The position numbers and the translations under genes were made by a program. 59,312 nt of DNA from an uncultured bacterium (lineage in GTDB: Bacteria > Bacteroidota > Bacteroidia > Bacteroidales > CAIWKO01), in NCBI GenBank assembly GCA_903862465.1, contig CAIOYH010000023.1, positions 1 through 59,312 of the forward strand. Reading direction: 5' to 3'. Of this stretch, positions 12,242 to 58,957 are shown one piece after another. The notes below the pieces were generated by a model. The model ran no database searches. It saw only the letters and a program-made list of their open reading frames with translations, and was not told the DNA's origin. Position 1 is the first letter of the stretch; every line of letters begins with the position of its first letter.

Positions 12242-12430
12242 TCAGACATGAGTCTGAACTATTCAGACATGAATCTGAGTTATCCGGGCATGAATCTGAG
12301 TTATCCGAACACGAATCTGAGTTATCCATCCATGAATCTGAGTTATTCAGCCATGAGTCTGAGTTATCCGGACATGAGTCTGAACCATCCAAACATGTGT
12401 CTGAACGATTCAGACACGTGTCGGAACCGT
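12242..12430. repeat. 21-bp tandem array A (9 units)
   Basis: Nine contiguous 21-bp units start at 12242, 12263, 12284, 12305, 12326, 12347, 12368, 12389 and 12410, then decay. Unit 1 holds the dyad TCAGACATGAGTCTGA (6-bp arms, 4-bp spacer). Other units have substitutions mostly in the left arm. All frames through it are open because 21 is divisible by 3, so the apparent small ORFs are not genes. It lies between two minus-strand genes. Confidence 0.95.
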
Positions 12431-12635
12431 ACAGACAACGAGAGTTTTGTTCTTTCTCTATACAAAACAATAGGATTTAAGAGGGGGATATTTTCCGTTA
12501 CATGCTTTTTATATCTCTATATATAAGAGAGTTATGTAGAGAGTTGACGAAGGTTTTTCGCTGATAATCTTGATGAAGTCTATGCTTTCCTATAGCACCC
12601 AAAATTTCTGAAATATTACTAGGAGCGGTTTCTAG

Positions 12636-12710
12636 CCCGAACTGAACCCCAAACTAGGAACTATTAACTCTGAACTAGGAACTCTAAACTCTGAACAAGG
12701 AACTAGCCCA
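12636..12710. repeat. Short degenerate repeats built on GAACTAGGAACT
   Basis: The segment is made of diverged copies of AACTCTGAACTAGG. The same sequence style recurs at 40126-40175. Non-coding, directly after the stop of the CapA-like gene. Origin unknown. Confidence 0.7.
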
Positions 12711-21103: not shown

Positions 21104-21278
21104 AAGGATGACATTAAAGTCATGCAGACCTAGAGCCTGCTTATCGAGAACCATCTGTGTTGCGGATGTGTTCGAAAGCTTGTAAATAGCAGCATGTCTG
21201 ATTTATACAAGTATTTTATTATGCTAAATGAGCATAATAATGGCTCAAAACATACTCATTTAATGCCGCTATACATCG
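21104..21278. other. Intergenic region, no gene seen
   Basis: No open frame with a plausible start. It leads directly into 21-bp array B. Confidence 0.5.
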
Positions 21279-21362
21279 TTATTCTATAACAGAACATCGT
21301 TATTCTACATTAGAATAATCTTATTCTACTATAGAATAACTTCATTCTACCAATAAAATATT
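21279..21362. repeat. 21-bp tandem array B (4 units)
   Basis: Units start at 21279, 21300, 21321 and 21342. The middle units hold the dyad TTATTCTANNATAGAATAA or a close form. The array lies 60-170 bp upstream of the FGE-like gene, between two plus-strand genes. Confidence 0.88.
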
Positions 21363-31229: not shown

Positions 31230-31502
31230 TTCATGTTTTTTAAGATTATATCGATATCTTTTAAGATTATATCGATATCTTTTATGAAGACATCGACATC
31301 TTTTAAGAAGATATCGACATCCTTTAAGATTTCATCGTCATCCTTTAAGACGATATCGACATCTGTTAAGATTATATCGTCATCCTTTAAGAAGATATCG
31401 ACATCTGTTATGATTACATCGATGTCTCTTAAGATTTTATCGACATCGTCTAAGAAGATATCGACATCTTTTAAGATTTCATCGACATCATCATAAATGA
31501 TA
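31230..31502. repeat. 21-bp tandem array C (about 13 units)
   Basis: Units start at 31230, 31251, 31272 and so on every 21 bp to 31482; the last is degraded. The best junctions form the palindrome AAGATATCGATATCTT. The array lies between a plus-strand terminator and the structured element copy 2, in a convergent intergenic region. Small frames through it are a by-product of the period. Confidence 0.95.
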
Positions 31503-38105: not shown

Positions 38106-38305
38106 TAAAAATTTTTTATTGTGATGCACAAATTTTTTAAGAAAAATATTTTCCTGATGTTTTCAGTAACGTAAATTGAATAAGATTAGGCACATATAGC
38201 CATGTATTTCTGTGTTTTCTTTTTGATGAAAGAAGAAGAATTAAGGAACAACAGCGAAAAGTAAGTGCGAAAACTGCAAATATGCTTCATGGGGCGCAAA
38301 GGAAC

Positions 38306-38494
38306 GTTGCGGTGGTCAAAAGAGTTGTTGCGATACTTAAAAGGAAGACTGCGGTGGTCGAAAGAGTTGTTGCGGTACTCAAAAGGAATGATGCGATGGT
38401 CGAAAGGAATGATGCGGTGCTCGAAAGGAATGATGCGGTGGTCAAAAGGATCGTTGCGGTACAAAAAAGAGTCGTTGCGGTACAAAAAAGGAGC
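38306..38494. repeat. 21-bp tandem array D (9 units)
   Basis: Units start every 21 bp from 38306 to 38474; cores read GATGCGGTGGTCGAAAGGAA or close forms. No clear dyad, unlike the other 21-bp arrays. It lies in the divergent region between the protease-TPR gene and the methyltransferase-like gene. All frames are open, giving spurious ORFs on both strands. Confidence 0.94.
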
Positions 38495-40185: not shown

Positions 40186-40743
40186 ATGAATTACGATAAC
40201 CAAAAAATCTATACCAAAAAAGGCGACAGCGGCAACACTTCCCTCATTGGCGGCAGCCGTGTTGAAAAGTCCGATTTGCGCATCGAAGCCTACGGCACCC
40301 TCGACGAATTGAATTCTTTTATCGGACTTATCCGCGATTTTTCTGTGGAGATGGAACAAAAGCACACCCTGCTAGCCATTCAGTCGCATATTTTTATCGC
40401 AGAATCATTGTTGGCTGCCGATTCCGAAAAATCACTTATCAATTTGCCAATGCTAACGGAAGAAAACGTCCAACTATTAGAGACCGAAATAGACCGCATG
40501 AACGAACGCTTGCCCGAACTGAAACATTTCATATTGCCGGGCGGACATCCTGTGGTTTCTTATTGCCATATAGCGCGTACCGTGTGTCGGAGGGCAGAAC
40601 GTGCTATGGTGAAGCTCGATTTGTTTAGCGAAAAACAAAAACTAGTATTAAAATATGTAAACCGCCTTTCCGATTACTTTTTTGTATTGGCTCGCTATGT
40701 TGCCAAAGATTTAGGCGTCGCGGAAACGCTTTGGAAAATTTAA
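40186..40743 (+). CDS. Cob(I)alamin adenosyltransferase, PduO type
   Basis: 185 residues, normal length. Hallmarks: KIYTKKGDSGNTSLIGGSRVEKSD (ATP-binding start), EAYGTLDELNSFIG, and ARTVCRRAERAMVKL, a helix with the conserved Arg residues of the ATP site. It transfers the adenosyl group from ATP to Co(I) corrinoid, making adenosylcobalamin. The two B12-binding radical SAM genes at 51-54 kb use cobalamin but not necessarily this form. Directly preceded by degenerate repeats; no clear promoter seen. Confidence 0.94.
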   Translation: MNYDNQKIYTKKGDSGNTSLIGGSRVEKSDLRIEAYGTLDELNSFIGLIRDFSVEMEQKHTLLAIQSHIFIAESLLAADSEKSLINLPMLTEENVQLLETEIDRMNERLPELKHFILPGGHPVVSYCHIARTVCRRAERAMVKLDLFSEKQKLVLKYVNRLSDYFFVLARYVAKDLGVAETLWKI

Positions 40744-44221: not shown

Positions 44222-44401
44222 AGGACCCGTTGATTTGGATTGGTAGTCGGGGCGCGACTTGGAATCGCACTCAGACTTGATAACAATTACTTTTTCTTAG
44301 GATTAAGGGTTTGCAGACAGCAATCCTTTGTTTTTTTCAAAGTATTGGTATAATGCACCTTGCAAATTAATGAAATGTTAATCGAGCTCATTCTTTAAGA
44401 G

Positions 44402-44632
44402 TAACGAACGTTTCTTCAAGAGTAACGAACGTTTCTTTTGAAATAACGAACGTTACTTTCGAAATAACGAACGAAACTTTTGAAGTAACGAATGAAATTT
44501 TTGAAGTAACGAATGAAACTTTTGAAATAACGAACGTTTCTTTTGAAATAACGAACGAAACTTTTGAAATAACGAACGAAACTTTCGAAATAACGAACGT
44601 TACTTCAAGAGTAACGAACGATCCGACCGAAA
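44402..44632. repeat. 21-bp tandem array E (11 units)
   Basis: Units start every 21 bp from 44402 to 44612; the last is degraded. Cores read TAACGAACGTTTCTTTTGAA. TTTCGAAA flanked by CGTTA/TAACG forms a near-perfect dyad across unit boundaries. Units alternate CGTTTCTTTT and CGAAACTTTT. It lies in the divergent region between ftsX and the membrane-protein gene. Confidence 0.95.
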
Positions 44633-45852: not shown

Positions 45853-46419
45853 ATGAAATTTCCCGAATCAGCATTAGCTCATAAATATCTCGACGGATTG
45901 CAAGGCATTGAAATTGGTGGCGCTGCGCATAATAGTTTTGGGTTGAACACTATTAATGTTGATAGAGTGGGGGATATGAACTCGCATTTCAAAATAACCG
46001 AAGTTGAATTGTGTGGCGAAGCTTTGCAGGTGGATGTGGTGGCAGAGGGCAATAAGTTACCTTTTGCGGATAAATCTTATGATTTTGTGATTTCGAGCCA
46101 TGTGATAGAACATTTTTATGACCCAATTTCGGCATTGTTGGAATGGGCTCGCGTGGCACGACGCTATATTTTTATCATTGTTCCCCATCGGCAGCGCACT
46201 TTTGATGCAGACAAAAAGCTTACTAAAGTAAAGGAGCTTCGCAAACGTCATATTAAGAAGCTTGTTGTTGAGGATGAAGCCCGAGGGGTGCATTGGTCGG
46301 TTTTCGAAGTGCCCAATTTCAATGAGTTGTGTGTGTTGTGTGGATTGAAAGTAGTAGAGATTCAGGACCCCGACGATAAAGTGGGCAATGGGTTCACGTT
46401 TGTGATAAAGTTGGATTGA
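45853..46419 (+). CDS. Class I SAM-dependent methyltransferase
   Basis: 188 residues, a compact methyltransferase-11 type domain: LQGIEIGGAAHN (motif I), FADKSYDFVISSHVIEHFYDP (motif IV) and FIIVPH (motif VI). Acceptor unknown. It is divergent in orientation from the methyltransferase operon that ends at 46480 and lies at the edge of the ACP/FkbH block. No clear promoter. Confidence 0.85.
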   Translation: MKFPESALAHKYLDGLQGIEIGGAAHNSFGLNTINVDRVGDMNSHFKITEVELCGEALQVDVVAEGNKLPFADKSYDFVISSHVIEHFYDPISALLEWARVARRYIFIIVPHRQRTFDADKKLTKVKELRKRHIKKLVVEDEARGVHWSVFEVPNFNELCVLCGLKVVEIQDPDDKVGNGFTFVIKLD

Positions 46420-46479
46420 GTGTTTATTTCGTATAAAGAGAGAATTGGGGCGGCATGTTCTGTATCAGATTATTTTGCC

Positions 46480-47238
46480 TTATTTTCTCATCGTGATATA
46501 AAATTCGTAGGTATTGATTTGGGTTAAGATGGTTTCTTCCGCAGCAACTTGTAGTTTTATCAAATTATATTCAAATAGCATCGCCATTAATTTTATAAAA
46601 CTTTCAGGAGTCCAAACCCAACAATGTGTATCTATATAGGTATGCAAAGATTCTTTTGCAAAATGCAAGGCGAGTTCATGATATTCTTTTGTAATCGTGA
46701 ATTCATGCGAAACTTCTCCATTATGATGTTTAACAGGGTCGTTGCAAATTTCGTTGGGCACATATAAAAAATGTTCATAAACTATTCGAGGGTCAGGTTT
46801 TTTTCTGTCTTCGAGATAAGCACCCATGACATCCGATATATCGGTAAGTCGGCGTCTGAAATCAAAACAATAACGTTTGTCAGGTATCGCCAATTGTAGC
46901 TTGCCATCGTCCTCCAAAATGGACTCAATTTCATTGAGCCACTTTATTAGATTCGGAACATGCTCTATGACATGAGAAGCAATAATCAATCCAAACTTCT
47001 CGCCGTTTACAAGCTCTTGATACGGTTGCCCCTTATGAACATAATGAACCTCAACAATATCGTCATTATTGATATTGGGGTCGTTCAGGAAATGTGCTTT
47101 TAATTCCTCGGTACTCAACAGGTCTAAATACCTTGTATTTGGATGTTCTTTGGGCAATACGGGTCTATGCAGCGGGGCGATTTCAAGACACTTGAATGTA
47201 TCCAAATAAGGCTGTAGTTTAAAAAAAGTATCTCTCAT
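46480..47238 (-). CDS. Class I SAM-dependent methyltransferase
   Basis: 252 residues. Motif I CLEIAPLHRP, acidic loop YLDLLSTEEL, FGLIIASHVIEHVPNLIKWLNEIESILEDDGKLQLAIPDKRY (motifs IV-VI). A long C-terminal part with DTHCWVWTPESFIKLM is seen in glycan-cluster methyltransferases. Last gene of a four-gene minus-strand operon (FkbH-like, ACP, methyltransferase, this gene), 15 bp after the previous stop. Confidence 0.87.
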   Translation of the reverse strand: MRDTFFKLQPYLDTFKCLEIAPLHRPVLPKEHPNTRYLDLLSTEELKAHFLNDPNINNDDIVEVHYVHKGQPYQELVNGEKFGLIIASHVIEHVPNLIKWLNEIESILEDDGKLQLAIPDKRYCFDFRRRLTDISDVMGAYLEDRKKPDPRIVYEHFLYVPNEICNDPVKHHNGEVSHEFTITKEYHELALHFAKESLHTYIDTHCWVWTPESFIKLMAMLFEYNLIKLQVAAEETILTQINTYEFYITMRK

Positions 47239-47253
47239 AATCTCATGGTTTTT

Positions 47254-48156
47254 CTAAGCTGTTACCAAAACACCTGCGTACATCATGGATACCTTATACT
47301 TTTCGGCAAGCTCAGGAGGTACATTTTCTGAATATATTGAAAACTCTTTCTCGATTTTAAAACCACTAGCTGTGATAAGGTCTCGGATTTCGTCGGCATT
47401 TCTAAAAAGATAAATATGGTCTATGGTTGGACCATTGGTTGGCACCGTAAGAAACACTTTGCCATCATCCTTCAACAAAGAAAATAGCTTCTTGAGTAAG
47501 TCAACGGGGCGTTCCACATGTTCTAAAACCTCTCCCATGGTGATAAAATCATATTTTGTAGCAGGCATATAGTTGAAAATATCCGAAAGCACATAAGTAA
47601 CTTGGTCGTTTGCTATCATCATTTTAGCAATATCTATAGAACTTTGGCTGATATCAACCATGTTAAAAGTGGCTTTTGCGCCTATGCTACGAATGGCTTC
47701 TGAAGCATACAAACCATGACCACCTCCCACTTCCAAATAGGAATGTATTTGCGGGCTGTTTTCTTTAATAACACTGTTGAAAAACAAGAGGATATTGTAA
47801 TGATGCGCCCACAGAAACTGCGACAAAAGAATGCCATGAACATAATATTGCATCACTTCGGGATTGTTATAAACCCTTGTATTCACCTCGTCAAAAGTCG
47901 TGCTTGTATATTTTCCTGTTTGCATAAATTGAACGGTTTCGTAGTTGATATCTGCAATCATTTGCAAATAACAATCAATGGCATAATCCAGGGTTTTTCC
48001 TTGATGTTGCAGCAACAAATTATATCGAGTCAGGAAAGCATTTGCGCGGATAAAATATGTTTCGTCAAAGTTTTGTTGATTATGCAGTATTTTCTTCCCA
48101 TGTATTTTATTGAGTAAACAAATACGTTCTACAATATAATCTAATAAGGTCTGCAT
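47254..48156 (-). CDS. Class I SAM-dependent methyltransferase
   Basis: 300 residues. A helical N-terminal cap (~1-130) precedes the methyltransferase core: YLEVGGGHGLYASEAI (motif I), MVDISQSSIDIA (motif II), YDFITMGEVLEHVERP (motif IV), GKVFLTVPTNGP. The cap and the location after an acyl carrier protein gene suggest an ACP-bound or sugar substrate (inference). 46 bp downstream of the ACP gene. Confidence 0.87.
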   Translation of the reverse strand: MQTLLDYIVERICLLNKIHGKKILHNQQNFDETYFIRANAFLTRYNLLLQHQGKTLDYAIDCYLQMIADINYETVQFMQTGKYTSTTFDEVNTRVYNNPEVMQYYVHGILLSQFLWAHHYNILLFFNSVIKENSPQIHSYLEVGGGHGLYASEAIRSIGAKATFNMVDISQSSIDIAKMMIANDQVTYVLSDIFNYMPATKYDFITMGEVLEHVERPVDLLKKLFSLLKDDGKVFLTVPTNGPTIDHIYLFRNADEIRDLITASGFKIEKEFSIYSENVPPELAEKYKVSMMYAGVLVTA

Positions 48157-48202
48157 AAAGTTGTTTTACTCTGTAAGTAATGTTTATAGGGATTGCAAAT
48201 TG

Positions 48203-48445
48203 CTATTTTATTTTATCATAGATGCAGGCTATCATGTCGCCTACGTTATCCCAACTTTGAATTTCTCTTGATGAAAAATGGGTATTAAATTTCATTTCTA
48301 TAGCCACTACCAAGCGGATATGAGCTAACGAATCCCATTCTTCAATATCGTTGGCTGTAGTTTCGTTTGTTAAAACGATATCTTTTTTATCAAGTACATC
48401 AATAAAAATCTCTTTTACTATTTTTTCTAATTGTTCTTTTTCCAT
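48203..48445 (-). CDS. Acyl carrier protein
   Basis: 80 residues, normal ACP length, four-helix pattern. The phosphopantetheine Ser lies in EEWDSLAHIRLVVAIE (DSL motif). It differs from a housekeeping AcpP in context: placed between an FkbH-like gene and methyltransferases, it should carry a dedicated acyl group. In FkbH-type pathways the phosphatase-like enzyme loads a glyceryl unit from a glycolytic acyl phosphate onto such an ACP. Confidence 0.93.
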   Translation of the reverse strand: MEKEQLEKIVKEIFIDVLDKKDIVLTNETTANDIEEWDSLAHIRLVVAIEMKFNTHFSSREIQSWDNVGDMIACIYDKIK

Positions 48446-48520
48446 GCCTTCTTTTGTTTTTTTATAATTAATGATATAGGATTATTTACTTGTCGATTTT
48501 TTTTAATATGATTTTATTAT

Positions 48521-50260
48521 TCAATTGTTTACTTTAGAATATTTTTCAAGGATAAAACATTTTTTATCTTCGTAATTTGCCACATCCAACCTCCAAAATT
48601 CGTTGGAACTTTCAAACCCAAGCCCTTTATAATGATGCTGCACCATTTCGTTTTTTGACGTTGGAATATATTCGCCTTTTAAATACTTGAAGCCATTTTC
48701 TTTAGCACACCCTGCTATTTTATTCAGGACAAAATGTTCCATGCCACGCTTCAACACACGACAACTCATCAACCAAGTATCTATAAACAAGGTTTGCTCG
48801 TTTTCCTTATGTAAAATTATTACGCAAATCATCCCATTATCCCCAAATTTGTCTTCCAAGGTAAATGCAAAAGTAAAATATTTTTCCGACTCGGCAAAGA
48901 ATTTAATATCAGCATCGGTATAACGAATGGCTCTGAGATTAAATTGATTCGAACGTTGAGATAGTTGCGCAACTCTTGGAATATTAAATGTAGTGAAAGG
49001 TTCAACCAAGGATTGCATGTGTAAACTCTTCAAAAAATCATCCTCATTCAAAAAACTCTTTTGAACAGTTTTGCGTTCCGCTTCAATTTTATATAGTGCT
49101 GTTCGCTGTTTGTCTTCATGAGAATATGAAGTTGTTTCGAAAAGATTCAAACTATACAAATACTCTAAATAATCGGCAGGATCTTCAGGCAATTCGGGCA
49201 CACAAATCTCCGGAATAGTTGAATGTACTAGGCTCCTTTCAAATGGATTATCATCAAGAAATACCATAGTATCGAAACCGATGTTTAAAACACTTTGTAT
49301 GTGTCGAAGGTTATCCGCTTTGTTTTCCCAATTTGCCACAAACACCGCGATATCGTTCAATTGCAACACCATATCAGGATGTTTTTCAAAAGGTTCTTTG
49401 GCAACAGATTCAATGTTTTTGCTACAAACAGCAATGATAATGCCTCTGTTTTTCAGTTTCTTTATCCAATATTGAAATTCTGTAAAGGCTTTGCCAATAC
49501 CCAAACTTCCCATCTGAATGTTTTCCATCCCATCATCGCCAATGATACCTCCCCACAAGGTATTATCTAAATCTAGAATCAAACATTTTTTAAAATTCCC
49601 ATGTAAAGCAGCTATCAAATCAACTGTTTTAGAAGCTATTTCAGGTATCACATCCACGCTTAGTACCATTTCATAATTTATATAGATGGACGTGTGAAAG
49701 AATGTCTTTTTGCCAACTCGATTCTGAATTGTTGAAATTTCGCAGACATAAAAGTTGTGATTCTTTGATGCAAATAGCATTAGTTCATAATTGAGCTTAC
49801 GCAATTGAAACAAAAATGAAGCAGGTATTTTGCTTGCAAAGTTTCCAAACACATGGTCATCAATTTCAGTATAGTTGTAATAAATTACTTTCGCCGTTAG
49901 CTTTTCAGAAAGAACGGCGTAATAATTTTCAATGGAAGATAGCTCATTTGAGGCAAGCATATCATGCTCATCCGTTGATAGTTTGTTGTATTTGCTCAAC
50001 AATATATGCGCAGATTGAAACACGATAATAATGTCAGGATGAACGGCATATAATTCTGAGGATGTATCATAAATCTGCCGTTCAATTTGATTGAAATCTG
50101 TTTCCCAAACATTCAAATCCAATCGTTTTTCATAGCCAACAGCCCTGATGGCTTGGGTTAGGAATTGTGTTGAGGTATCTCCAAGCACAGCTACTTTACA
50201 ATTCGTGAAACCTGTAAAGTCTTTTTTTAAGTTCTTTAGTAATTGAAAAAAATCTTTCAT
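48521..50260 (-). CDS. FkbH-like HAD-superfamily / acyltransferase fusion
   Basis: 579 residues. The N-terminal domain (~1-210) is SGNH-like (VAVLGDTSTQFLTQAI; HPDIIIVFQSAH). The HAD-IIIC phosphatase-like domain (~222-380) has the catalytic DxD motif in LILDLDNTLWGGIIGDDG and VFLDDNPFERS. The C-terminal GNAT-like domain (~430-575) has FKYLKGEYIPTSKN. FkbH proteins dephosphorylate a glyceryl donor and transfer the glyceryl group to an ACP; the ACP gene follows 75 bp downstream. Promoter TTG-N19-TAACTTTG (50314-50285). Whether the product enters a polyketide or a glycan cannot be decided from sequence. Confidence 0.9.
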   Translation of the reverse strand: MKDFFQLLKNLKKDFTGFTNCKVAVLGDTSTQFLTQAIRAVGYEKRLDLNVWETDFNQIERQIYDTSSELYAVHPDIIIVFQSAHILLSKYNKLSTDEHDMLASNELSSIENYYAVLSEKLTAKVIYYNYTEIDDHVFGNFASKIPASFLFQLRKLNYELMLFASKNHNFYVCEISTIQNRVGKKTFFHTSIYINYEMVLSVDVIPEIASKTVDLIAALHGNFKKCLILDLDNTLWGGIIGDDGMENIQMGSLGIGKAFTEFQYWIKKLKNRGIIIAVCSKNIESVAKEPFEKHPDMVLQLNDIAVFVANWENKADNLRHIQSVLNIGFDTMVFLDDNPFERSLVHSTIPEICVPELPEDPADYLEYLYSLNLFETTSYSHEDKQRTALYKIEAERKTVQKSFLNEDDFLKSLHMQSLVEPFTTFNIPRVAQLSQRSNQFNLRAIRYTDADIKFFAESEKYFTFAFTLEDKFGDNGMICVIILHKENEQTLFIDTWLMSCRVLKRGMEHFVLNKIAGCAKENGFKYLKGEYIPTSKNEMVQHHYKGLGFESSNEFWRLDVANYEDKKCFILEKYSKVNN

Positions 50261-50284
50261 GCTATAGTGTTAGACATATCGCTG

Positions 50285-50314
50285 CAAAGTTAATCATTTA
50301 TTGTCTATCAACAA
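50285..50314 (-). promoter_or_regulatory. Promoter of the FkbH-ACP-methyltransferase operon
   Basis: On the minus strand TTG (50314-50312), a 19-bp gap, TAACTTTG (50292-50285): both elements with ideal spacing, ~25 bp upstream of the ATG at 50260. Confidence 0.7.
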
Positions 50315-50580
50315 TATCTTGAAACTAATCGGATATTATTACAACACGTAATGGTTTTCATTATCGTTCATGGTGTATTGTTCAAAAATCCGTTCGGATT
50401 CCTATAGTAATATGACAACAAAGACGCCTAAATCTACCTAATATATTTTAGTAAAAGCAGTTTTTCAATTTTCAAAGTAGGTATCCTATAAAAATTCTCC
50501 ATTTTTTGAACTTTTTTAACTCCTTGTAAATAAGCACCCTCTAGAGGCAATATTTTTTTTATTTTCCGGGGGGAGAGCAA
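50315..50580. other. Divergent intergenic region, no gene seen
   Basis: Between the FkbH promoter and array F. No open frame or strong hairpin; a TTTTTTTATTTTCCGGGGGGAG tract precedes the array. Confidence 0.45.
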
Positions 50581-50874
50581 ACCTCCCCTGTTTGTTTAAT
50601 TATCTCCCCTGTTTGTTTACATACCTCATAGGTTATTCTAAATACCCCCGAGGTATCTATAATTACCTCTTAGGTTTCTATAATTACGTCCGAGGTATCT
50701 ATAATTACCTTCTAGGTTTCTATAATTATCTCTGAGGTATCTATAAGTACCTCCTAGGTTTTTATAAGTACCTCCTACGTTTCTATAATTACTTCCGAGG
50801 TTTTTATAGATACTTCTGAGGTTTTTATAGATACTTCTAGAGTTTTTATAATTATCTCCGAGCTTATTACTTTT
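50581..50874. repeat. 21-bp tandem array F (14 units)
   Basis: Units start every 21 bp from 50581 to 50854. Middle units hold ACCTCNGAGGT or ACCTNNTAGGT dyads followed by TTTCTATAATTA. Early units (50581, 50602) differ (CCCCTGTTTGTTT). It lies in the divergent region between the FkbH operon and the radical SAM genes, ending 64 bp before a plus-strand -7 element. Confidence 0.95.
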
Positions 50875-50937
50875 TTATTCAACATGTATATTTAAGAACT
50901 ATTATAAGATTTCTGTGTCAGTATAAAATTAAAATAC

Positions 50938-50945
50938 TATATTTG
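50938..50945 (+). promoter_or_regulatory. -7 promoter element of the radical SAM-MBOAT gene run
   Basis: TATATTTG, 59 bp before the start codon at 51005. No good -33 TTG was found. Confidence 0.5.
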
Positions 50946-51004
50946 CAAACCGACAAGGCTAGTAAAAAAGAAACATTACAATAAAAAAAAGGGGTGCAAC
51001 TTTC

Positions 51005-52498
51005 GTGATAAAAAAAATTCTATTAATTGATGTTGAAATATTCGAGGACAAAAACCATCCCGGAGCCCAATTATATAGTCATCATCCTATCGGATTGTTG
51101 TATCTTATTGCCTCAGCGAAAAGTCAATTCCCCGACATAGAGTTTAAAATTTTTCACACTTCAACAAGCGCTGAACCTGTAAAAGATTTAGAAAACTTGC
51201 TCCTTTCATTCAACCCTGACATGGTAGGTCTTAGGGCATTATCCATAGCTGCCGACTCGTTTAAAATAATAAGCGAAAAAGTTCGGGAAATCAAACCTCA
51301 TATTCCAATAGTCGGTGGCGGTCCCTATCCTTCCATTTCTTACGATGATCTTTTGCATTCAGGCTTAATTGATTTGGCTGTTATTGGAGAAGGAGAAATA
51401 ACCTTTGTTGAGTTGATTAATCAACTGATGAAAACCACCGCTATTCCAACGGATATAAAAGGAACAGCCGTGATAGAAAACGAAAAGCTGAAAGTAAATG
51501 AACAGCAGCCTGTAATTAAAAATATTGATGTTTTGCCGTTTCCTGATTATGATTATATCAACCTGAAAGAATACCATCATCTTAAAAATCATGCATTACA
51601 AGATGCGTCTGAATCGGCATTTATTTTAGGTTCTCGAGGTTGTCCTTATGGCTGTTTTTATTGTCATCAGCTGTTTGGGAAGAGGATTCGTCGCCGTTCT
51701 GCCGAAAATATTGTTGCAGAAATAAGAGAGCATATAGAAAAGCGGGGTATTTTTGATTTTGTTTTCTTGGATGATATTTTTAATGTGCCCATGCCTGAAG
51801 CCAAAAAAGTCTTGTCGTTAATCATCGAAAAACTACCTCCCATAAGAATAAATTTCCCGAATGGCTTGCGTGCCGATTTTATTGATGAAGAGATGCTTGA
51901 TTTGTTTGAAAAAGCAGGAACTGTACACATGGCATTGGCAGTGGAATCCGTAACGCCCCGACTCCAAAAAATGATGGGGAAAAACCTAGATATTGAAAAA
52001 GCAGGAAAGGTCATAGATGCTGCTACGAAACGATTCGTGACCCGAATTTTTTATATAATAGGATTCCCGACAGAAACGTATGAAGAGGCAATGGATACCA
52101 TTAATTTTGCGGCAAAATTTAAGCATGCAGCTCATCCTACCTTAAGCGTTTTGAGGCTATATAATAACTCACGGCTTTTTGATATACTTCAACCGACCGA
52201 GGAACAAATAATGGCGATAGCTTTGCAGGAAAAAAACTTTTTGCATTTAACAATGTTTCATAATACAGAATTTTATGGGGATTTTTTTTCCGAAGAAAAA
52301 GTGCCAATTAAAGGCAAGGACTTAAAAGGACTTTCCTATCATTGGTTGCGTGAAGTTCTTTTTAATCCTGAACGTATCAGACCAAGTCATCAGGTTTTGG
52401 AAAAATTTTATGATAAGGAGAAAATCATAGAATTTTATCAAAGCATCTTTGATAATCTGAATTTTAATGAGAAGGACTTACGAAGATTGTTGAAATAG
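51005..52498 (+). CDS. B12-binding-domain radical SAM protein, copy 1
   Basis: 497 residues, GTG start (51005) preceded by AAAGGGGTG; no upstream ATG is in frame. The N-terminal B12-binding-like Rossmann domain (~1-165, IPIVGGGPYPSISYDDLL) is followed by the radical SAM core with cluster Cys in RGCPYGCFYCHQLFGKRIRRRS, and C-terminal accessory sequence. The classic DxHxxG base-off His motif is not evident, so true cobalamin binding is uncertain. Related enzymes methylate unactivated carbons or phosphinates. The next gene is a close paralogue. Confidence 0.9.
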   Translation: MIKKILLIDVEIFEDKNHPGAQLYSHHPIGLLYLIASAKSQFPDIEFKIFHTSTSAEPVKDLENLLLSFNPDMVGLRALSIAADSFKIISEKVREIKPHIPIVGGGPYPSISYDDLLHSGLIDLAVIGEGEITFVELINQLMKTTAIPTDIKGTAVIENEKLKVNEQQPVIKNIDVLPFPDYDYINLKEYHHLKNHALQDASESAFILGSRGCPYGCFYCHQLFGKRIRRRSAENIVAEIREHIEKRGIFDFVFLDDIFNVPMPEAKKVLSLIIEKLPPIRINFPNGLRADFIDEEMLDLFEKAGTVHMALAVESVTPRLQKMMGKNLDIEKAGKVIDAATKRFVTRIFYIIGFPTETYEEAMDTINFAAKFKHAAHPTLSVLRLYNNSRLFDILQPTEEQIMAIALQEKNFLHLTMFHNTEFYGDFFSEEKVPIKGKDLKGLSYHWLREVLFNPERIRPSHQVLEKFYDKEKIIEFYQSIFDNLNFNEKDLRRLLK

Positions 52499-52544
52499 CT
52501 TCAATAATTGGCTTATAAAGATAAATATGGAGAGGATAAATTAA

Positions 52545-54044
52545 ATGATAAGCAGAATTCTACTTATAGACATTGAATTATTCAGCGATAAAAATAGTCA
52601 TACACAGATATGGTTCAGTCATTACCCTATTGGTTTGCTTTATCTTGCCTCGGCTGCCAAAGAAGCATTTCCGGAATTAGAGTTTAAAGTTTTTCACACA
52701 GCAACAAGCAACAATCCGATAAAGGATATTGAATCGCTTTTAGCATCATTTAAACCCAATCTGATAGGGCTTAGGGCTATGTCGAGAGGCAAAGATCCTT
52801 TTAAATTGGTTGCAGAAAAAATCAGGGAACTAAGACCCGATGTGCCAATAATCGCGGGTGGTCCATATCCTTCAACTTGTTATGATGAAATTTTGTTGGC
52901 AGATATGGTTAACATGGCTGTCATAGGCGAAGGAGAACTAACTTTTGTTGATATCATTGGTCATCTTATGAAATCTCCTGCAATTCCATTGAATTTGAAA
53001 GGCACTGTTGTTATTGAGCAGGGAAAAGTGAAAGTAAACGAGTCGCGTCCTTTAATTCAAAACCTAGATATCATCCCGTTTCCTGATTTTAGCTTACTTA
53101 ATCTGAAAGATTATATTGGTTTCAAAAACCAAGGTTTGCAGGATGTATCAGAATGTGCTATTATTTTCTCTACCCGCGGATGTCCTTACGGTTGTTTTTA
53201 CTGTCACCAACTTTTTGGGAAAAGGATACGTCGTCGTTCGGCTGAAAATGTGGTGGCAGAAATGAAAGAACATGTTGAAAAAAGGGGCATTAAGAACTTT
53301 ATTTTTATTGATGATACGTTTAATGTGCCTATGCCCGAAGCCAAAAAGATTTTAGCCCTTATTGCGCAAAAATTACCGGGCATAAGAATTAATTTTCCCA
53401 ACGGATTTCGTGCCGACCATATAGACGATGAATTGATTGATTTGCTCGAACAAGCCGGAACCGTTGAAATGGCATTAGCTGTCGAAACTGCTGTGCCACG
53501 CTTACAAAAGTTAATCGGGAAAAATCTAGATATTGATAAGGCGAGAAAAGCTATTGATGCGGCTTCTAGACGTTTTATTACGCGTACACTTTTTATTGTT
53601 GGCTTTCCAACTGAAACGTTTGAAGAGGCAATGGAAACTATTAACTTTGCAGCCTCTTTTGAATATGTAGCGCAGCCCATGTTAAGTTTGCTGCGCGTTT
53701 ACAATAATTCCAGGCTGTTTGATATGCTTGAACCTACTCAGGAACAAGCTGCGCAAATTGCATTGCAGGAGAAAAATATTATGCATTTAGAAATGTTTGA
53801 TGATATTGGCTTCTACGGCGACTTGTTTTCAGCTGAAAAGGTCCCTTTAAAAAGCAACGATATTAAAGAGCTTTTAAGCTGTTGGATGCGTTCTGTCCTT
53901 ATAAATCCGAAGCGCATCAACAAAAGTCATGCAATAGCACAAAACTACCTGAATCCTGAAGAAATATTAGAGTTTTACAGAAATGTATTCGATAAACCTT
54001 TGTTTAGTGAAAACGATTTACAAAGGTTGTTAAAATTAAAATGA
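52545..54044 (+). CDS. B12-binding-domain radical SAM protein, copy 2
   Basis: 499 residues, collinear with the 51005-52498 protein over its whole length and clearly homologous (shared CPYGCFYCHQLFGKRIRRRS and EDIxxMPEAKK-type blocks). The same two domains are present. It arises from tandem duplication followed by divergence; both retain the three cluster Cys, so both are probably active with different substrates or successive steps. 46-bp gap to the first copy. Confidence 0.9.
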   Translation: MISRILLIDIELFSDKNSHTQIWFSHYPIGLLYLASAAKEAFPELEFKVFHTATSNNPIKDIESLLASFKPNLIGLRAMSRGKDPFKLVAEKIRELRPDVPIIAGGPYPSTCYDEILLADMVNMAVIGEGELTFVDIIGHLMKSPAIPLNLKGTVVIEQGKVKVNESRPLIQNLDIIPFPDFSLLNLKDYIGFKNQGLQDVSECAIIFSTRGCPYGCFYCHQLFGKRIRRRSAENVVAEMKEHVEKRGIKNFIFIDDTFNVPMPEAKKILALIAQKLPGIRINFPNGFRADHIDDELIDLLEQAGTVEMALAVETAVPRLQKLIGKNLDIDKARKAIDAASRRFITRTLFIVGFPTETFEEAMETINFAASFEYVAQPMLSLLRVYNNSRLFDMLEPTQEQAAQIALQEKNIMHLEMFDDIGFYGDLFSAEKVPLKSNDIKELLSCWMRSVLINPKRINKSHAIAQNYLNPEEILEFYRNVFDKPLFSENDLQRLLKLK

Positions 54045-54164
54045 TCTTTTTGCTGACACTATAGAAATCACACGCTTGAACTCTTTATGAATAGAAAAAT
54101 AAATAAAATTATTTTTATGGCTTGCCTGAATATCAAAATACAATTATTAATCCGAAAGTAATTT

Positions 54165-55559
54165 ATGGTTTTCAGTTCGATCGTTTTTATTTTTATTTTT
54201 CTTCCGATTTTTCTTGTAGGATATTATTTAATGCCAAGAATATGGGCTAAAAACATTTTCCTATTTTTGTCAAGTCTTGGTTTTTATTTTTGGGGCGCCG
54301 GAAACCTTGTGGTCCTATTAATCTTTATTGGGATATTCTCATGGTTTTTCTCAATGCTGATAGCTAAAACAAAATTCAAACGGACTTCTCTTATTATCGC
54401 CATTGCTACATTTATTGGAATTCTTGTCTATTACAAATATTTGGGATTCATCATTGATAGTCTGATTTATGCAGGTATTACGGGAATTCATCAAGTAAAA
54501 CTAGTATCATCCCTTGGTGTCTCATTTTTTACATTTCAGGCTATTTCTTATACCATTAATGTTTATCGGAAGAACGATCGATTTGAGAAAAATCCAGGGT
54601 ACATCATGCTTTATCTGACCATGTTTCCTCAATTAATAGCGGGTCCGATTGTAAGATATAGTAATATTGAACAACAACTGAAACATCGCAAATTTGAATT
54701 AGATAGATTCGCCGAAGGGGTTAAAAGATTTATCATTGGTTTGGGAAAAAAAGTATTGATTGCAAATAGCATTGGTTTTATGGTGAATTCTATTATGGAT
54801 GCTGATATATCTACTATTAGTCCTGCAGTGGCGTGGTTATGCATTGTGGCTTTTGCTGTACAGCTATTGTTTGATTTTTCAGGATACACTGATATGGCTA
54901 TTGGTGTCGGTAAAATGTTGGGCTTTGATCTTCCCGAAAATTTCAACTATCCCTATATCAGCAAATCACTTACTGAATTCTGGAGACGTTGGCACATGTC
55001 ATTATATGCTTGGATAAAAGATTATATTTTCAGTCCTCTTTCCATGAAGATGCGCTATTGGGGAAAAAGCGGAGTGTTCATTGCATTGACTGTAACTTTT
55101 ATAATTTCCGGAATATGGCATGGACCTACATGGAATTTTATCATCTGGGGAGGTTTTCAGGGACTTTTGCTTGGTCTTGAGGAATTGTTTTTCTTAAAGT
55201 ACCTCAAACGGTTAAAAGGTTTTGGCAGGATTTACCTCTGGTTTGTACTCATTTTGTGTGCGGTATTGTTTAGAACAAAAGATATACATCAGGCATTCGG
55301 TTATTATGCAATGATGTTTCATTTTTCAAAACCAGGTGTATTGGGTTTGAATGCTTTTGTTATGCATGAACACATTTTTGCGCTTCTAGCAGGGATATTA
55401 CTGTGCATTCCATTTACGATTTCTGAAAGATTTAAAACCGGGAAAATGAACATGGCTATTCAAACTCTTGGTACTATGTTGCTAGTAATTGTATTTGCCA
55501 TCTCACTGATGAGAATTGTGGGTGATACTAGTAACCCTTTCATTTACTTTAAGTTCTAG
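54165..55559 (+). CDS. MBOAT-family membrane O-acyltransferase
   Basis: 464 residues, about ten membrane segments. AlgI/DltB-type marks: GVSFFTFQAISYTINVYR, MFPQLIAGPIVRYSNIEQQL, EFWRRWHMSLYAWIKDYIF and the invariant His in SGIWHGPTWNFIIWGG. Such proteins pass acyl groups across the inner membrane to a periplasmic partner that puts them on exported glycans. The next gene, 5 bp on, encodes that kind of partner. Confidence 0.95.
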   Translation: MVFSSIVFIFIFLPIFLVGYYLMPRIWAKNIFLFLSSLGFYFWGAGNLVVLLIFIGIFSWFFSMLIAKTKFKRTSLIIAIATFIGILVYYKYLGFIIDSLIYAGITGIHQVKLVSSLGVSFFTFQAISYTINVYRKNDRFEKNPGYIMLYLTMFPQLIAGPIVRYSNIEQQLKHRKFELDRFAEGVKRFIIGLGKKVLIANSIGFMVNSIMDADISTISPAVAWLCIVAFAVQLLFDFSGYTDMAIGVGKMLGFDLPENFNYPYISKSLTEFWRRWHMSLYAWIKDYIFSPLSMKMRYWGKSGVFIALTVTFIISGIWHGPTWNFIIWGGFQGLLLGLEELFFLKYLKRLKGFGRIYLWFVLILCAVLFRTKDIHQAFGYYAMMFHFSKPGVLGLNAFVMHEHIFALLAGILLCIPFTISERFKTGKMNMAIQTLGTMLLVIVFAISLMRIVGDTSNPFIYFKF

Positions 55560-55564
55560 AGAAA

Positions 55565-58500
55565 ATGAATAATAACAAAACCGGCAGAAGCAGTAAAATC
55601 AGATCTTTTATTTTAAAGAGATTGAAGCTTGCCTTCCTGCTTTTTCTTATTATTCCACTGGTTTATTATTTATTATGGAATAATCAGGACCCAAAAACTG
55701 TTGACACAGCACAACATTTGGATTATTTAAGTTATTCTGTGAGATCAACAAACAAAGCAGCATTACGTTTAGTTGAAAAAGAGCAGGATATTATAAGTTG
55801 GAACATCAATTCAGGAGCCTATAAAAATCTTGAGTTTGTTGGTAACATAAGCTGTGAGGATGGGATTAAATTCAAAGCCGACAATCTAAATAGTAATGAT
55901 ACTCTTCTCTTTCTAGGTATTACTATCTATCACAAAAATAAACTTATATCTTTCAATGGTAGCAAGCAAAACATTTCCGTCAGCAATGCGAATCTTGATG
56001 TTAAGAATAGTGTTATACAATTAGTTGTCGAAAAAAGCGGAACTCCCGTAATCATAGATATAAAAACCCCTGCAGATTGGAATAATAACGAACCTCTTCA
56101 TGCAAAGAAGGTCGTAATAGGGTTACTATTCCTATTTGCTTTTTTGTTGATGATATGGATAAATCCTTCAACAAAGTATTTGATAGTATCATTGGGAGTC
56201 ACTATTTTTGTTCTTCTTATTAGTTATATTGTTTTCAATAGTTCTAGTGGAAAGATTACGTTCTCGACATCTTCTAAGATAAATAATGCTGAAATCTTCT
56301 ACAGTCAGACACCTTTCTTTAGTACAACAAAAAGATACTCCTCTGAAAAACTTACAGATGTCTTTAGTCAACCTCTAAACTTAGAAACGGAAAAATATCT
56401 GCGCTTCGATGTAGGTGACAGCCTATTGGATTTGAATCAAATTACAGTAAAACTCAATACCGGCATCTTTTCCAAAAGTTACACTCTTTCTGATTTGCCT
56501 GAGGATAGATTAATTCTGAATGATATGGTATTGATTGGCAAAACATATCATATTACCGGTAATGACCCCTACATTAAGTTAGTTTCGCCATCTTTCATTG
56601 ATACGATTGATTTTCTGCTTTTTCTGGAGCTTAACAAGTTCCTGTTCATTGCGATTATTGTTTTCATCATTTTATTATGCCTGCATAGCTTGCTTGATAA
56701 GAAGTTGAACAGATTAAAACTGAAACCCGCCTATCTGGCGTTTCTATTAATCCCTTTTACGTATTACATGATTAGCCAGCATTGGTTTCCCAATGCAGTT
56801 CAACAGCATTCTGACTATCTTTATTTTTCCGCCAAAACAACACATCCCGGCATATTTACATTGTTTAACGGAAATGATTCTCTGACTTCATGGCTAGTTG
56901 ATTCTCCGGGTTACAAGTATCTCCAATACAAAGGTCATGCGAATATAAATGAGAACTTTTTCATTAAGGTGAAAGGGCTTTCGAAGCAGGATACTGTCTC
57001 GTTTCTTTCTATTAATCTTTTTCACGACAACCAAACCTATTCCCTGTATGAAAAAAGCAATGCCACTTGCAAAATAAACAATGCCCGCTTTGTGGATAAT
57101 ACAAATGCTAGTAATGTTGTGGTGGATAAAACCGGCATTCCTCTAACAGTAAGTTTGATGCCATCAAATATAATGCAGAAAAACAATCAGGAAAACCATA
57201 CTCATGCGATTCTTATTCTCATTATTTTTTGTGTCTTCATTATTGCTCTTTTATTTTCACCGGATCAAAGGTTCTTTATCGTATCAACTATTGTTACATC
57301 CATATTAATGGTTGTGTTTTTCTGGATGAGTAATGAGGTGCAAAGTCTGCTTGTATTAAAAACAAGCTCTCCTGCAGGGAGGGTAGATATATTTTATAAC
57401 AATAATCCCGGCTTTGTTCCTAAACAAACCTATCTGGATATTACAAGCAAATATGAATTCAAATTGCAAATCATGCCTGCTGATTTCTTGTTTTACAGAT
57501 GCGATATTGGAGAAAAAAATGATATAATTAAAGATCTAGGGATAAATTCTACTATTGGAATATTAAGTAATCAATGGGATTACAGCACTGTTTCTCCTGA
57601 CAAAATCCTATTGAATGATATGATACGATGTGGAAATGATTATCGTGTGTGTGGCGATGATCCGTTTATTGCTTTGTCGTCGGCATATCAGATAAAGAAG
57701 TTGCAAGGCTTGGTTTTGATTCGACAGAATTTGTTTTTCTTTCTGTCGCTACTGCTGTTTTTGATAGTAATAATTGTGGGAAAATATTCAAAAGGAGACA
57801 AATTACCCAATTTCTTTCAAGTTGTGTTTTTCCTTACATTTATCTCTACAGGCATTATAATCTATCTGTTTAATTCTGAAAACAGAGTCTTGTTATCAGA
57901 AAACCGTCGAACAACTAAATTCCCTGTTTTTCAGACGGATTCCACTGCTGCTTTTATCAAAGGATTGGATAATTACATTTTAGATCAATTGCCCGGCAGA
58001 AAATATATGATCAGGATGAATAACTTGATGCAATATACGGTTTTCAAACAAGTGGTTAACAGTCAGATCATTCATTTTGGAGAGGACGGATGGATGTATT
58101 TTATTGGCGGACCTGCCAAAGATAATTATGAAAACAGAGTCCCGCTTACGATGGATGAATTGGGCAAAATCAAAAATTTGCTTGAAGCCAGAAGAGATTG
58201 GCTGCAAAAAAGGGACATCTCTTTCTATGTGGTATTTCCACCCATGTGCCAAAGTGTGTATGAAGAATTTGTCGGTCAACGCATGAGACGATATTGTAAG
58301 AAAACAAAGACAGAGCAACTTTTTGAATACCTGAAATCAAACTCAAGCCTGAAAGTTATTGATGTTTACACGCCTTTAATGAAGGCAAAAACCACTTTTC
58401 AGGAAAAACTTTATTTTAAAAACAATTGCCATTGGACCTATTTCGGAGGCTATATTGCCTATTGCGAAATGATTAATTACATGAAAAAGGACTTTACCAA

Positions 58501-58957
58501 CATAGGCGAAGTGGTAAATTCAAAGGACTTTGGATGGGAAGAATCCGCCAATTTCAGACCAGATTTACTGACACTTATGGATATTGACATGTTTTACTCT
58601 TTTCAACAAACTAAACCCAAATTTTATGAGAATATAATCACGGATACTATCTATCCATTTTATTTGGATTTATGGACTCCCAAACCACCTGTCAGTGTTA
58701 TCACTAAAAAGACCACCAATCCGTCAATGCTTATGTATGGAGATTCTTATGCAGGATGTATATTGCCCTTTCTTCTTCAAAACTATAGTAAGACCACTTT
58801 TGTTTGGACACCGCTGTTTCAACCGGCTATCATCGAAAAAGAAAAACCCGATATGGTGATTCAGGAAATGGTGGATGGGAGCATTTTGAACATACTTCTC
58901 AAAAACAAACCCTTTCCAGAGCTGAAAGATAGCACGAATAAACTTCCTCCCAATTAA
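55565..58957 (+). CDS. Giant AlgJ/AlgX-like acyltransferase partner with duplicated N-terminal module
   Basis: 1130 residues. Two homologous modules, each with TM segments and a beta-rich domain: ~20-385 (DYLSYSVRST..SWNINSGAYKNLEF) and ~395-745 (DYLYFSAKTT..SWLVDSPGYKYLQY). A C-terminal SGNH-like AlgJ/AlgX domain follows (~770-1130): GEDGWMYF (~839), NNCHWTYFGGYIAY (His956) and MYGDSYAGC (Ser1061). The catalytic triad in AlgJ/AlgX is Asp-x-His plus Ser; here residue 954 is Asn where Asp is expected. The duplicated modules have no known family. It should receive acyl groups from the MBOAT protein encoded just upstream. Confidence 0.85.
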   Translation: MNNNKTGRSSKIRSFILKRLKLAFLLFLIIPLVYYLLWNNQDPKTVDTAQHLDYLSYSVRSTNKAALRLVEKEQDIISWNINSGAYKNLEFVGNISCEDGIKFKADNLNSNDTLLFLGITIYHKNKLISFNGSKQNISVSNANLDVKNSVIQLVVEKSGTPVIIDIKTPADWNNNEPLHAKKVVIGLLFLFAFLLMIWINPSTKYLIVSLGVTIFVLLISYIVFNSSSGKITFSTSSKINNAEIFYSQTPFFSTTKRYSSEKLTDVFSQPLNLETEKYLRFDVGDSLLDLNQITVKLNTGIFSKSYTLSDLPEDRLILNDMVLIGKTYHITGNDPYIKLVSPSFIDTIDFLLFLELNKFLFIAIIVFIILLCLHSLLDKKLNRLKLKPAYLAFLLIPFTYYMISQHWFPNAVQQHSDYLYFSAKTTHPGIFTLFNGNDSLTSWLVDSPGYKYLQYKGHANINENFFIKVKGLSKQDTVSFLSINLFHDNQTYSLYEKSNATCKINNARFVDNTNASNVVVDKTGIPLTVSLMPSNIMQKNNQENHTHAILILIIFCVFIIALLFSPDQRFFIVSTIVTSILMVVFFWMSNEVQSLLVLKTSSPAGRVDIFYNNNPGFVPKQTYLDITSKYEFKLQIMPADFLFYRCDIGEKNDIIKDLGINSTIGILSNQWDYSTVSPDKILLNDMIRCGNDYRVCGDDPFIALSSAYQIKKLQGLVLIRQNLFFFLSLLLFLIVIIVGKYSKGDKLPNFFQVVFFLTFISTGIIIYLFNSENRVLLSENRRTTKFPVFQTDSTAAFIKGLDNYILDQLPGRKYMIRMNNLMQYTVFKQVVNSQIIHFGEDGWMYFIGGPAKDNYENRVPLTMDELGKIKNLLEARRDWLQKRDISFYVVFPPMCQSVYEEFVGQRMRRYCKKTKTEQLFEYLKSNSSLKVIDVYTPLMKAKTTFQEKLYFKNNCHWTYFGGYIAYCEMINYMKKDFTNIGEVVNSKDFGWEESANFRPDLLTLMDIDMFYSFQQTKPKFYENIITDTIYPFYLDLWTPKPPVSVITKKTTNPSMLMYGDSYAGCILPFLLQNYSKTTFVWTPLFQPAIIEKEKPDMVIQEMVDGSILNILLKNKPFPELKDSTNKLPPN

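Follow-up and report, generated by a model that had tools for sequence, protein, structure and literature searches.

A divergent FkbH/acyl carrier protein and MBOAT/AlgX-like gene cassette of the Bacteroidales: a candidate system for carrier-fed acylation of a surface glycan

Can a glyceryl group loaded onto an acyl carrier protein (ACP) be handed to a membrane acyltransferase of the MBOAT family, and so reach a surface glycan? The question is raised by a cassette at one end of a 59,312 bp contig (CAIOYH010000023.1; C23 in our numbering) of the 4.2-Mb draft genome (G000; assembly GCA_903862465.1) of an uncultured member of the Bacteroidales (lineage CAIWKO01). The entire contig is referred to here as the window. 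Two runs of genes diverge in the cassette: on the minus strand those for an FkbH-type protein, an ACP and two methyltransferases, MT300 and MT252 (intergenic gaps of 75, 46 and 15 bp), and on the plus strand those for two B12-binding radical S-adenosylmethionine (SAM) proteins, rSAM1 and rSAM2, an MBOAT and a giant AlgX-like protein (gaps of 46, 120 and 5 bp). An earlier note on this DNA, made from the sequence alone, had joined the two runs into one pathway in which a modified C3-type acyl group is made on the ACP and exported to a surface glycan; its coordinates and family assignments for both runs were upheld by the listing of open reading frames (ORFs) and by family scans. The two runs are indeed linked, and the proposed direction is plausible, and strengthened by our results, while the core of the system is wider than the note had it. 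We consider it fairly probable that the cassette is a Dlt-like, carrier-fed MBOAT-SGNH glycan acylation system in which the acyl group starts as a glyceryl unit made by FkbH.

Linkage of the two runs within the order

The order sample comprised 393 genomes (thresholds: FkbH, E≤1e-50; rSAM1, E≤1e-60; AlgX-like, E≤1e-40), and in this and the phylum run the best three candidates per genome were scored (the best two for the AlgX-like query). FkbH was found in 27 of the 393 genomes, the giant AlgX-like protein in seven and rSAM1 in five. The five genomes with rSAM1 (G000, G030, G042, G238 and G307, bearing four family codes) all hold FkbH and the giant AlgX-like protein as well, which is the co-occurrence that the earlier note had suggested looking for. 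The hypergeometric chance of such an overlap is 1e-6 for FkbH and 3e-10 for the AlgX-like protein, values which presume independence and are to be read with the caution that the genomes are not fully independent. Neither FkbH nor rSAM was detected, at the thresholds used, in the three congeners. In the phylum sample of 395 genomes (E≤1e-90) G000 alone had the radical SAM family, which marks this branch as rare.

G030, which belongs to another family, carries all nine genes of the region in the same order and orientation, with 60–84% protein identity, and the arrangement is therefore more than chance. Its version (locus L042) includes a few further ORFs, such as a stand-alone copy of the AlgX-like N-terminal region, one for a sulfotransferase and a four-helix-bundle ORF; the last of these (TIGR02436; L042:8244-8609) lies with a 7-bp repeat array (8626-8764) between MT300 and the ACP gene. 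In G042 the genes for FkbH, ACP and MT300 diverge from those for a single rSAM, MBOAT and AlgX, with a sulfotransferase gene in the gap. The parts found in G238 are on short contigs which break inside FkbH and AlgX, so that gene adjacency is presumed there. In G307 there are likewise two divergent runs, ACP with MT300 and rSAM with MBOAT and AlgX, while FkbH, 71% identical to that of the window, stands alone on another contig (C230); that it lies outside the operon yet is kept in the genome argues for function and not mere proximity. A tree of 101 FkbH rows, made by a quick method, places the FkbH proteins of the five carriers in a supported set of six (SH-aLRT 96) together with an outsider (L119), the five not being shown as a clade by themselves. 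The two divergent runs belong together.

Loader, carrier and MBOAT

The FkbH gene (48521-50260, minus strand) specifies a putative glyceryl transferase/phosphatase with FkbH_N, HAD-IIIC and C-terminal domains. The protein matches TIGR01686 [6.9e-90; 301.5 bits against a cut-off of 146.65] and PF21211; Asp230 and Asp232 of the HAD Asp motif are invariant across 14 homologues, and the PDB relative 3slr covers residues 2-383. The adjoining ACP gene (48203-48445, minus strand; PF00550, 25.8 bits, cut-off 20.8) encodes a DSL motif (residues 38-40) with the predicted phosphopantetheine-bearing Ser39, a serine kept in eight aligned ACPs. With a domain above the curated cut-off, the HAD Asp motif and a partner ACP all present, FkbH would load a glyceryl unit, the donor being, by analogy, 1,3-bisphosphoglycerate.

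The MBOAT gene (54165-55559, plus strand; PF03062, 3.5e-26) specifies a protein whose last six residues (459-464) are FIYFKF, with Tyr461 as the candidate acyl-carrying residue. The candidate catalytic residue His319 lies in a WHG motif which is kept in the five FkbH-linked (F-type) copies, and the only PDB sequence relatives are DltB structures. After ORFs shorter than 340 amino acids and three identical copies had been dropped (93 to 90), F.Y..F was found within the last 25 residues of 85 of the 90 MBOATs compared, that of the window included. The five lacking it comprise those of two Chryseobacterium (YIYEQF), that of G030 (FIYFQY), one situated at the end of a contig, and one encoded in a dlt-like operon of the window genome. 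A C-terminal tyrosine acyl-shuttle motif is reported for MBOAT-SGNH glycan acyltransferases by Anderson et al. (2025; PMC12148441), who describe two feeding modes. In one, that of Dlt, a carrier protein works with a shuttle protein distinct from the MBOAT; in the other, that of PatA and others, the shuttle is built in and acyl-CoA is used, reportedly without a carrier protein. As judged from the genes around them, the FkbH-linked MBOATs and the ligase-linked ones described below appear to have both the built-in shuttle and a carrier protein, a combination absent from the cited part of that account.

The dlt-like operon just mentioned (L070:6889-11157; G000:C133) is of the dltA-B-D-C type in a Gram-negative-type genome; its DltA-, DltB-, DltD- and DltC-like proteins match NCBIfam models, all below the curated cut-off. 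A further row in the same genome (L071:5977-11061; G000:C220) consists of an ACP-like ORF, a 493-amino-acid ORF, a GDSL plus LysM protein and an MBOAT ending in FIYLEF, and may be a further MBOAT-SGNH set linked to a carrier, its partner binding peptidoglycan; its ACP label derives from tblastn, Pfam and NCBIfam having given no match.

The strongest argument for carrier feeding comes from a change of loader. G003 is a congener of G000 in which no FkbH was found. It has a 57%-identical MBOAT with two AlgX-like proteins, after which come an AMP-binding enzyme and a 79-amino-acid ACP. In NCBIfam the AMP-binding enzyme is matched best by fatty acyl-AMP ligases and by a subfamily of long-chain-fatty-acid-CoA ligases, none of these matches reaching cut-off. 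G307 has a ligase-type module next to its FkbH module. The MBOAT tree (87 rows, those shorter than 400 amino acids left out; quick method, no bootstrap) has the five F-type MBOATs in one clade (SH-aLRT 99), to which the G003 MBOAT is joined (98), followed by the remaining two of ligase type (100). Since a related MBOAT/AlgX pair thus occurs with two ways of loading an ACP, these gene neighbourhoods argue that the ACP, and not acetyl-CoA, feeds the MBOAT. The earlier note had raised the case of an MBOAT/AlgJ pair found alone with ordinary acetylation: a pair without FkbH does exist, in G003, but it is not bare, an acyl-AMP ligase and a different ACP standing with it.

The FkbH-ACP-MBOAT core is also found well beyond the order. 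A profile search of genome contigs gave 539 confirmed FkbH relatives, the best 80 of which were analysed; these are mostly from Bacteroidota, with a few from Treponema, one from Deltaproteobacteria and one from Bacillota, and 79 have an ACP match, the exception being a 3-kb fragment. Leaving out loci with less than 4.5 kb downstream reduced the 80 to 67, of which 47 have a same-strand MBOAT gene within 4.5 kb of FkbH, or 40 if 4 kb is measured from the FkbH end. Other same-strand neighbours in the 67 loci are SDR (30), MaoC (27), VOC (18), MT300 (14), ketosynthase III (7), acyltransferase-3 (6) and AMP ligase (4). Among 20 order loci fetched, 16 have an MBOAT and 17 an ACP match; this context comparison leaves out eight weaker FkbH matches of the order search. 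ORFs of 240–420 amino acids directly after the MBOAT gene contain a G-x-S motif of the SGNH block I type, a weak motif, in 50 of 55 cases. The MBOATs of these wider operons lie in other parts of the tree than the F-type clade, and FkbH-ACP therefore seems to have been coupled with an MBOAT on more than one occasion. The earlier note knew of no described pathway with the exact set of genes; as far as the core is concerned the set is not special, FkbH-ACP-MBOAT being a widespread operon of the Bacteroidota. In the open-access literature FkbH together with MBOAT yielded cyanobacterial peptides only, FkbH with gene cluster and lipopolysaccharide only a review of lipopeptides, and MBOAT with SGNH and carrier protein nothing listed as FkbH work; none was found on glyceryl with acyl carrier protein, polysaccharide and MBOAT, or on FkbH with acyl carrier protein and O-antigen.

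The remaining 20 of the 67 loci have no same-strand MBOAT within 4.5 kb: six of them have ketosynthase III, one acyltransferase-3 and 13 none of these. The 20 include the G042 locus (L094), whose MBOAT gene is on the opposite strand. FkbH-ACP therefore also serves other acceptors. At L119:10001-17113 an acyltransferase-3 protein comes after FkbH-ACP, and NeuB and aminotransferase genes belong to the run as well, which suggests that the carrier may also feed acyltransferase-3 enzymes in nonulosonate clusters. These loci bear on two other explanations of the cassette. One is that it holds two side-by-side pathways. In the first, FkbH, ACP and methyltransferases would furnish a methylated glyceryl group with which an amino sugar is N-acylated prior to polymerisation, as happens in Campylobacter flagellin; in the second, the MBOAT/AlgX pair would use acetyl-CoA to O-acetylate the polymer. 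The MBOAT-less loci would suit this explanation, as would the NeuB and acyltransferase-3 genes of L119, the amino-sugar genes (FdtA, DegT) near the cassette in G030 and G307, and the known 2,3-di-O-methylglyceroyl group on pseudaminic acid (PMC3068675). We nevertheless regard it as unlikely, given that the giant AlgX and MBOAT genes occur with an ACP and a loader, either FkbH or an acyl-AMP ligase, in all four genomes which are readable across the pair (G000, G003, G030, G307) and with FkbH in G042, and that FkbH-ACP-MBOAT adjacency arose with unrelated MBOAT clades. The other explanation, a polyketide-like or secreted small-molecule cluster using glyceryl-ACP as building block, we hold to be very improbable. 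FkbH is best known from such clusters (PMC13122637), and ketosynthase III is near FkbH in 7 of the 67 loci; against this, no ketosynthase, condensation or thioesterase family was detected among ten window proteins scanned, and MBOAT and AlgX-like genes follow directly.

Tailoring, transfer and the acceptor

The radical SAM proteins are encoded at 51005-52498 (rSAM1; PF04055 [5.2e-21] and PF02310 [4.5e-16]) and 52545-54044 (rSAM2; Radical_SAM and B12-binding), both on the plus strand, and are tandem paralogues with 62% identity. The CxxxCxxC motif is intact in both; in rSAM1 it reads CPYGCFYC, at 213, and the three cysteines are kept in 7/7 homologues. There are two copies in the window and in G030, and one each in G042, G307 and G238. 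The best PDB match is AprD4 [2.4e-12], followed by TokK and others. A structure of rSAM1 predicted from three sequences reached a mean predicted local distance difference test (pLDDT) score of 53.0 and was discarded. A cobalamin adenosyltransferase gene elsewhere in the window (40186-40743) is consistent with the use of B12.

The earlier note described two methyltransferases, both of which are present on the minus strand; a third, on the plus strand within the same range, was absent from that description. All are of class I and SAM-dependent. MT300 (47254-48156; Methyltransf_23 [2.9e-17]) is found in all five carriers with 54–71% identity and is proposed to methylate the ACP-bound glyceryl group. 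MT252 (46480-47238; Methyltransf_23 [1.4e-9]) has an 80% identical copy at the equivalent place in G030 and no match in the stretches of the other carriers. The third, MT188 (45853-46419; Methyltransf_11 [3.2e-10]), is an uncertain member of the cassette: copies with 84–87% identity occur in G030, G307 and G238, and in the latter two the gene lies between the MBOAT and giant AlgX genes of the sister ligase-type module.

That the methyltransferases and the radical SAM proteins act on the group bound to the ACP is our proposal. The carrier-fed route could also hold with these enzymes acting on the glycan or another molecule, the acyl group then being plain glyceryl or O-methylglyceryl. MT188 accompanies the ligase-type module too, neighbouring clusters share further methyltransferases and a SPASM radical SAM protein irrespective of FkbH, and the wider FkbH-ACP-MBOAT operons lack the B12 radical SAM family. 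On the other hand, every genome of the order sample in which the B12 radical SAM gene was found has FkbH too, and the gene is placed where other operons hold acyl-modifying genes (MaoC, SDR, VOC). We rate this alternative as rather unlikely, if a serious contender.

The giant AlgX-like protein (55565-58957, plus strand) matches PF16822 [3.6e-9] over residues 837-1018 only, and PatB1 (5v8d) [5.2e-8] over residues 779-974; about two thirds of its length has no family match. Its layout comprises two diverged repeats of membrane segments and beta-rich parts (27% identity over 343 residues, E=4e-43; eight hydrophobic segments), followed by a circularly permuted SGNH domain, whose Ser1061 (YGDSY) and His956 stand in the same permuted order as in the AlgX family. 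A structure predicted from two sequences (mean pLDDT 33.0) was discarded.

The acceptor would be an O-antigen-type polysaccharide, as the neighbourhoods of related cassettes suggest. On the contig of the FkbH module G030 has GT2, GT4, a Wzm/Wzt-like ABC-2 permease/ATPase pair, FdtA, a DegT aminotransferase and an O-antigen-ligase-type protein; G307 and G042 have GT716 and a SPASM radical SAM protein, and G307 also DegT and FdtA. Polysaccharide genes thus share the cassette's contig in three of the five carriers, and a similar cluster is beside the ligase module in G003. In the window the genes to the left of the cassette are ordinary and the contig ends 355 bp to its right, which is why the acceptor is deduced from relatives. 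The window genome has GT716 and the SPASM protein on contig C163, in which, read throughout, neither the cassette nor Wzm/Wzt-like genes were found.

The sequence shows the gene set, its linkage, the shuttle motif and the active-site residues given above; from these we infer the following route, in all its catalytic steps and with regard to both acyl group and acceptor. FkbH would take the glyceryl unit and load the dedicated ACP. The bound group would be O-methylated by MT300, and perhaps by MT252, and altered by the B12 radical SAM proteins through C-methylation or a diol rearrangement. The acyl-ACP would dock at the cytoplasmic face of the MBOAT, the acyl group moving to Tyr461 of the C-terminal tail, which would pass it to the AlgX-like SGNH protein and so to an exported surface polysaccharide. 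A more ambitious claim, which we put forward tentatively and judge to have the balance somewhat against it, is that such modules are a third MBOAT-SGNH class, combining the built-in tyrosine shuttle of PatA with the carrier feeding of DltB and having interchangeable loaders (FkbH or acyl-AMP ligase). Here the B12 radical SAM pair and the methyltransferases would produce, on the ACP, a new C3/C4 acyl group that is branched or rearranged, to be placed on an O-antigen-type polysaccharide by a giant SGNH protein without the Asp.

Several observations weigh against a carrier-fed glycan acylation system, beginning with the FkbH loci that have no MBOAT close by. A Pfam SGNH-type family was above cut-off in only one of six partner proteins tested from the wider operons. 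In its own genome, where the contig ends so soon after it, no polysaccharide cluster is seen around the cassette, and the radical SAM proteins match no curated NCBIfam family above cut-off, the best match, BchE, scoring 106 bits against a cut-off of 481, with a ladderane B12 family and others also far below. Asn954 occupies the position of the triad Asp (D-x-H motif) in the AlgX-like protein, and Asn is found there in 5/5 FkbH-module proteins, that of the window included; those of ligase modules have Asp in three of four cases and Ser in the fourth. In PatB1 the Asp mutant was less active and the Ser mutant inactive (PMC9487903), and the last step may therefore differ in FkbH-module proteins: these may use a Ser-His dyad, handle another acyl group or not be the final transferase. 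Lastly, of the six DltC contacts reported for DltB the window MBOAT keeps Met309, has a conservative change at Lys312 and does not keep the other four.

PLGG is a mark of AlgI-type MBOATs. It is lacking from 64 MBOATs near FkbH and present in 8, as against 8 and 10, respectively, elsewhere (Fisher p=1.5e-4, in an FkbH-chosen sample with related rows). A Dlt-like docking segment, recognised by the lack of PLGG, was dropped as proof of carrier use and kept as a hint, because of the nature of that sample, because at least one locus (L068) has an MBOAT without PLGG and no ACP seen beside it, and because only one of the six DltC contacts is kept. Taken as a whole, the interpretation of the earlier note stands as regards the linked runs and the direction from acyl group to glycan, which fits the MBOAT shuttle motif and the polysaccharide genes in three of five carriers; it is qualified by the missing triad Asp, by a core that is not special to the set and by a pair that occurs without FkbH.

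The 744 bp between the two runs contain a 21-bp tandem array (array F; 50621-50862, between FkbH and rSAM1), the reality of which the earlier note had correctly recognised. As a regulatory part of the cassette it was rejected and is not counted in the system, because the corresponding gap of L042 has no tandem array and several similar ones occur elsewhere in the window. Arrays with a 21-bp period and differing units are found at 12243-12437, 12652-12705, 21273-21355, 31238-31489, 38298-38492 and 44391-44621, in addition to array F; some overlap small ORFs, and comparable arrays are present on another contig of the genome (L185). Terminator-like hairpins lie in or beside array F (50569-50589, 50650-50669 and 50734-50753), and four terminator-like sites were observed around it compared with a mean of 0.4 in shuffles.

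Comparison with known systems

Should the proposed route be correct, carrier-bound and chemically tailored acyl groups could reach surface glycans by a third feeding mode, which our results suggest to be widespread in Bacteroidota. This would explain the decoration of surface sugars by acids other than acetate, and FkbH-ACP would be a handle for finding such systems. The cassette would join two pathways which are usually described apart.

The Dlt system of teichoic acid D-alanylation (DltA-DltC-DltB-DltX-DltD) resembles the cassette in its dedicated carrier protein, MBOAT and SGNH partner. It differs in employing the adenylating ligase DltA where the cassette has FkbH, and in having its shuttle on DltX whereas the cassette MBOAT carries its own tail; the partner is DltD-like rather than AlgX-like, and the cassette has extra methyltransferase and radical SAM genes.

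FkbH, ACP and O-methyltransferase form the module of glycerate-using natural products that makes the FK520-type methoxymalonyl units. In the suomilide proposal FkbH loads glycerate from 1,3-bisphosphoglycerate, O-methylation and sulfation follow on the carrier protein, and an MBOAT acylates a hexose in a separate step (PMC13122637). FkbH, carrier protein and methyltransferase are common to suomilide and the cassette, and the suomilide sulfotransferase domain (PMC13122637) has a parallel in the sulfotransferase genes that adjoin the cassette in G030 and in G042. Unlike suomilide, the cassette has no assembly line, and its product appears bound for a membrane acyltransferase.

FkbH and ACP take part in the di-O-methylglyceroyl pathway of Campylobacter jejuni. 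In C. jejuni flagellin the di-O-methylglyceroyl group is on pseudaminic acid and depends upon Cj1295 (PMC3068675). As in our proposal a methylated glyceryl group comes to be on a surface glycan; but there it is an amide, formed at the nucleotide-sugar stage, and the cited part of that paper names no MBOAT.

The O-acetyltransferases PatA/PatB and AlgI/AlgJ/AlgX share with the cassette the F.Y..F tail of the MBOAT and an SGNH partner of the AlgX/PatB1 family (PMC12148441). They are reported to use acyl-CoA and no carrier protein, whereas in the cassette an ACP and its loader are adjacent and the triad Asp is replaced by Asn.

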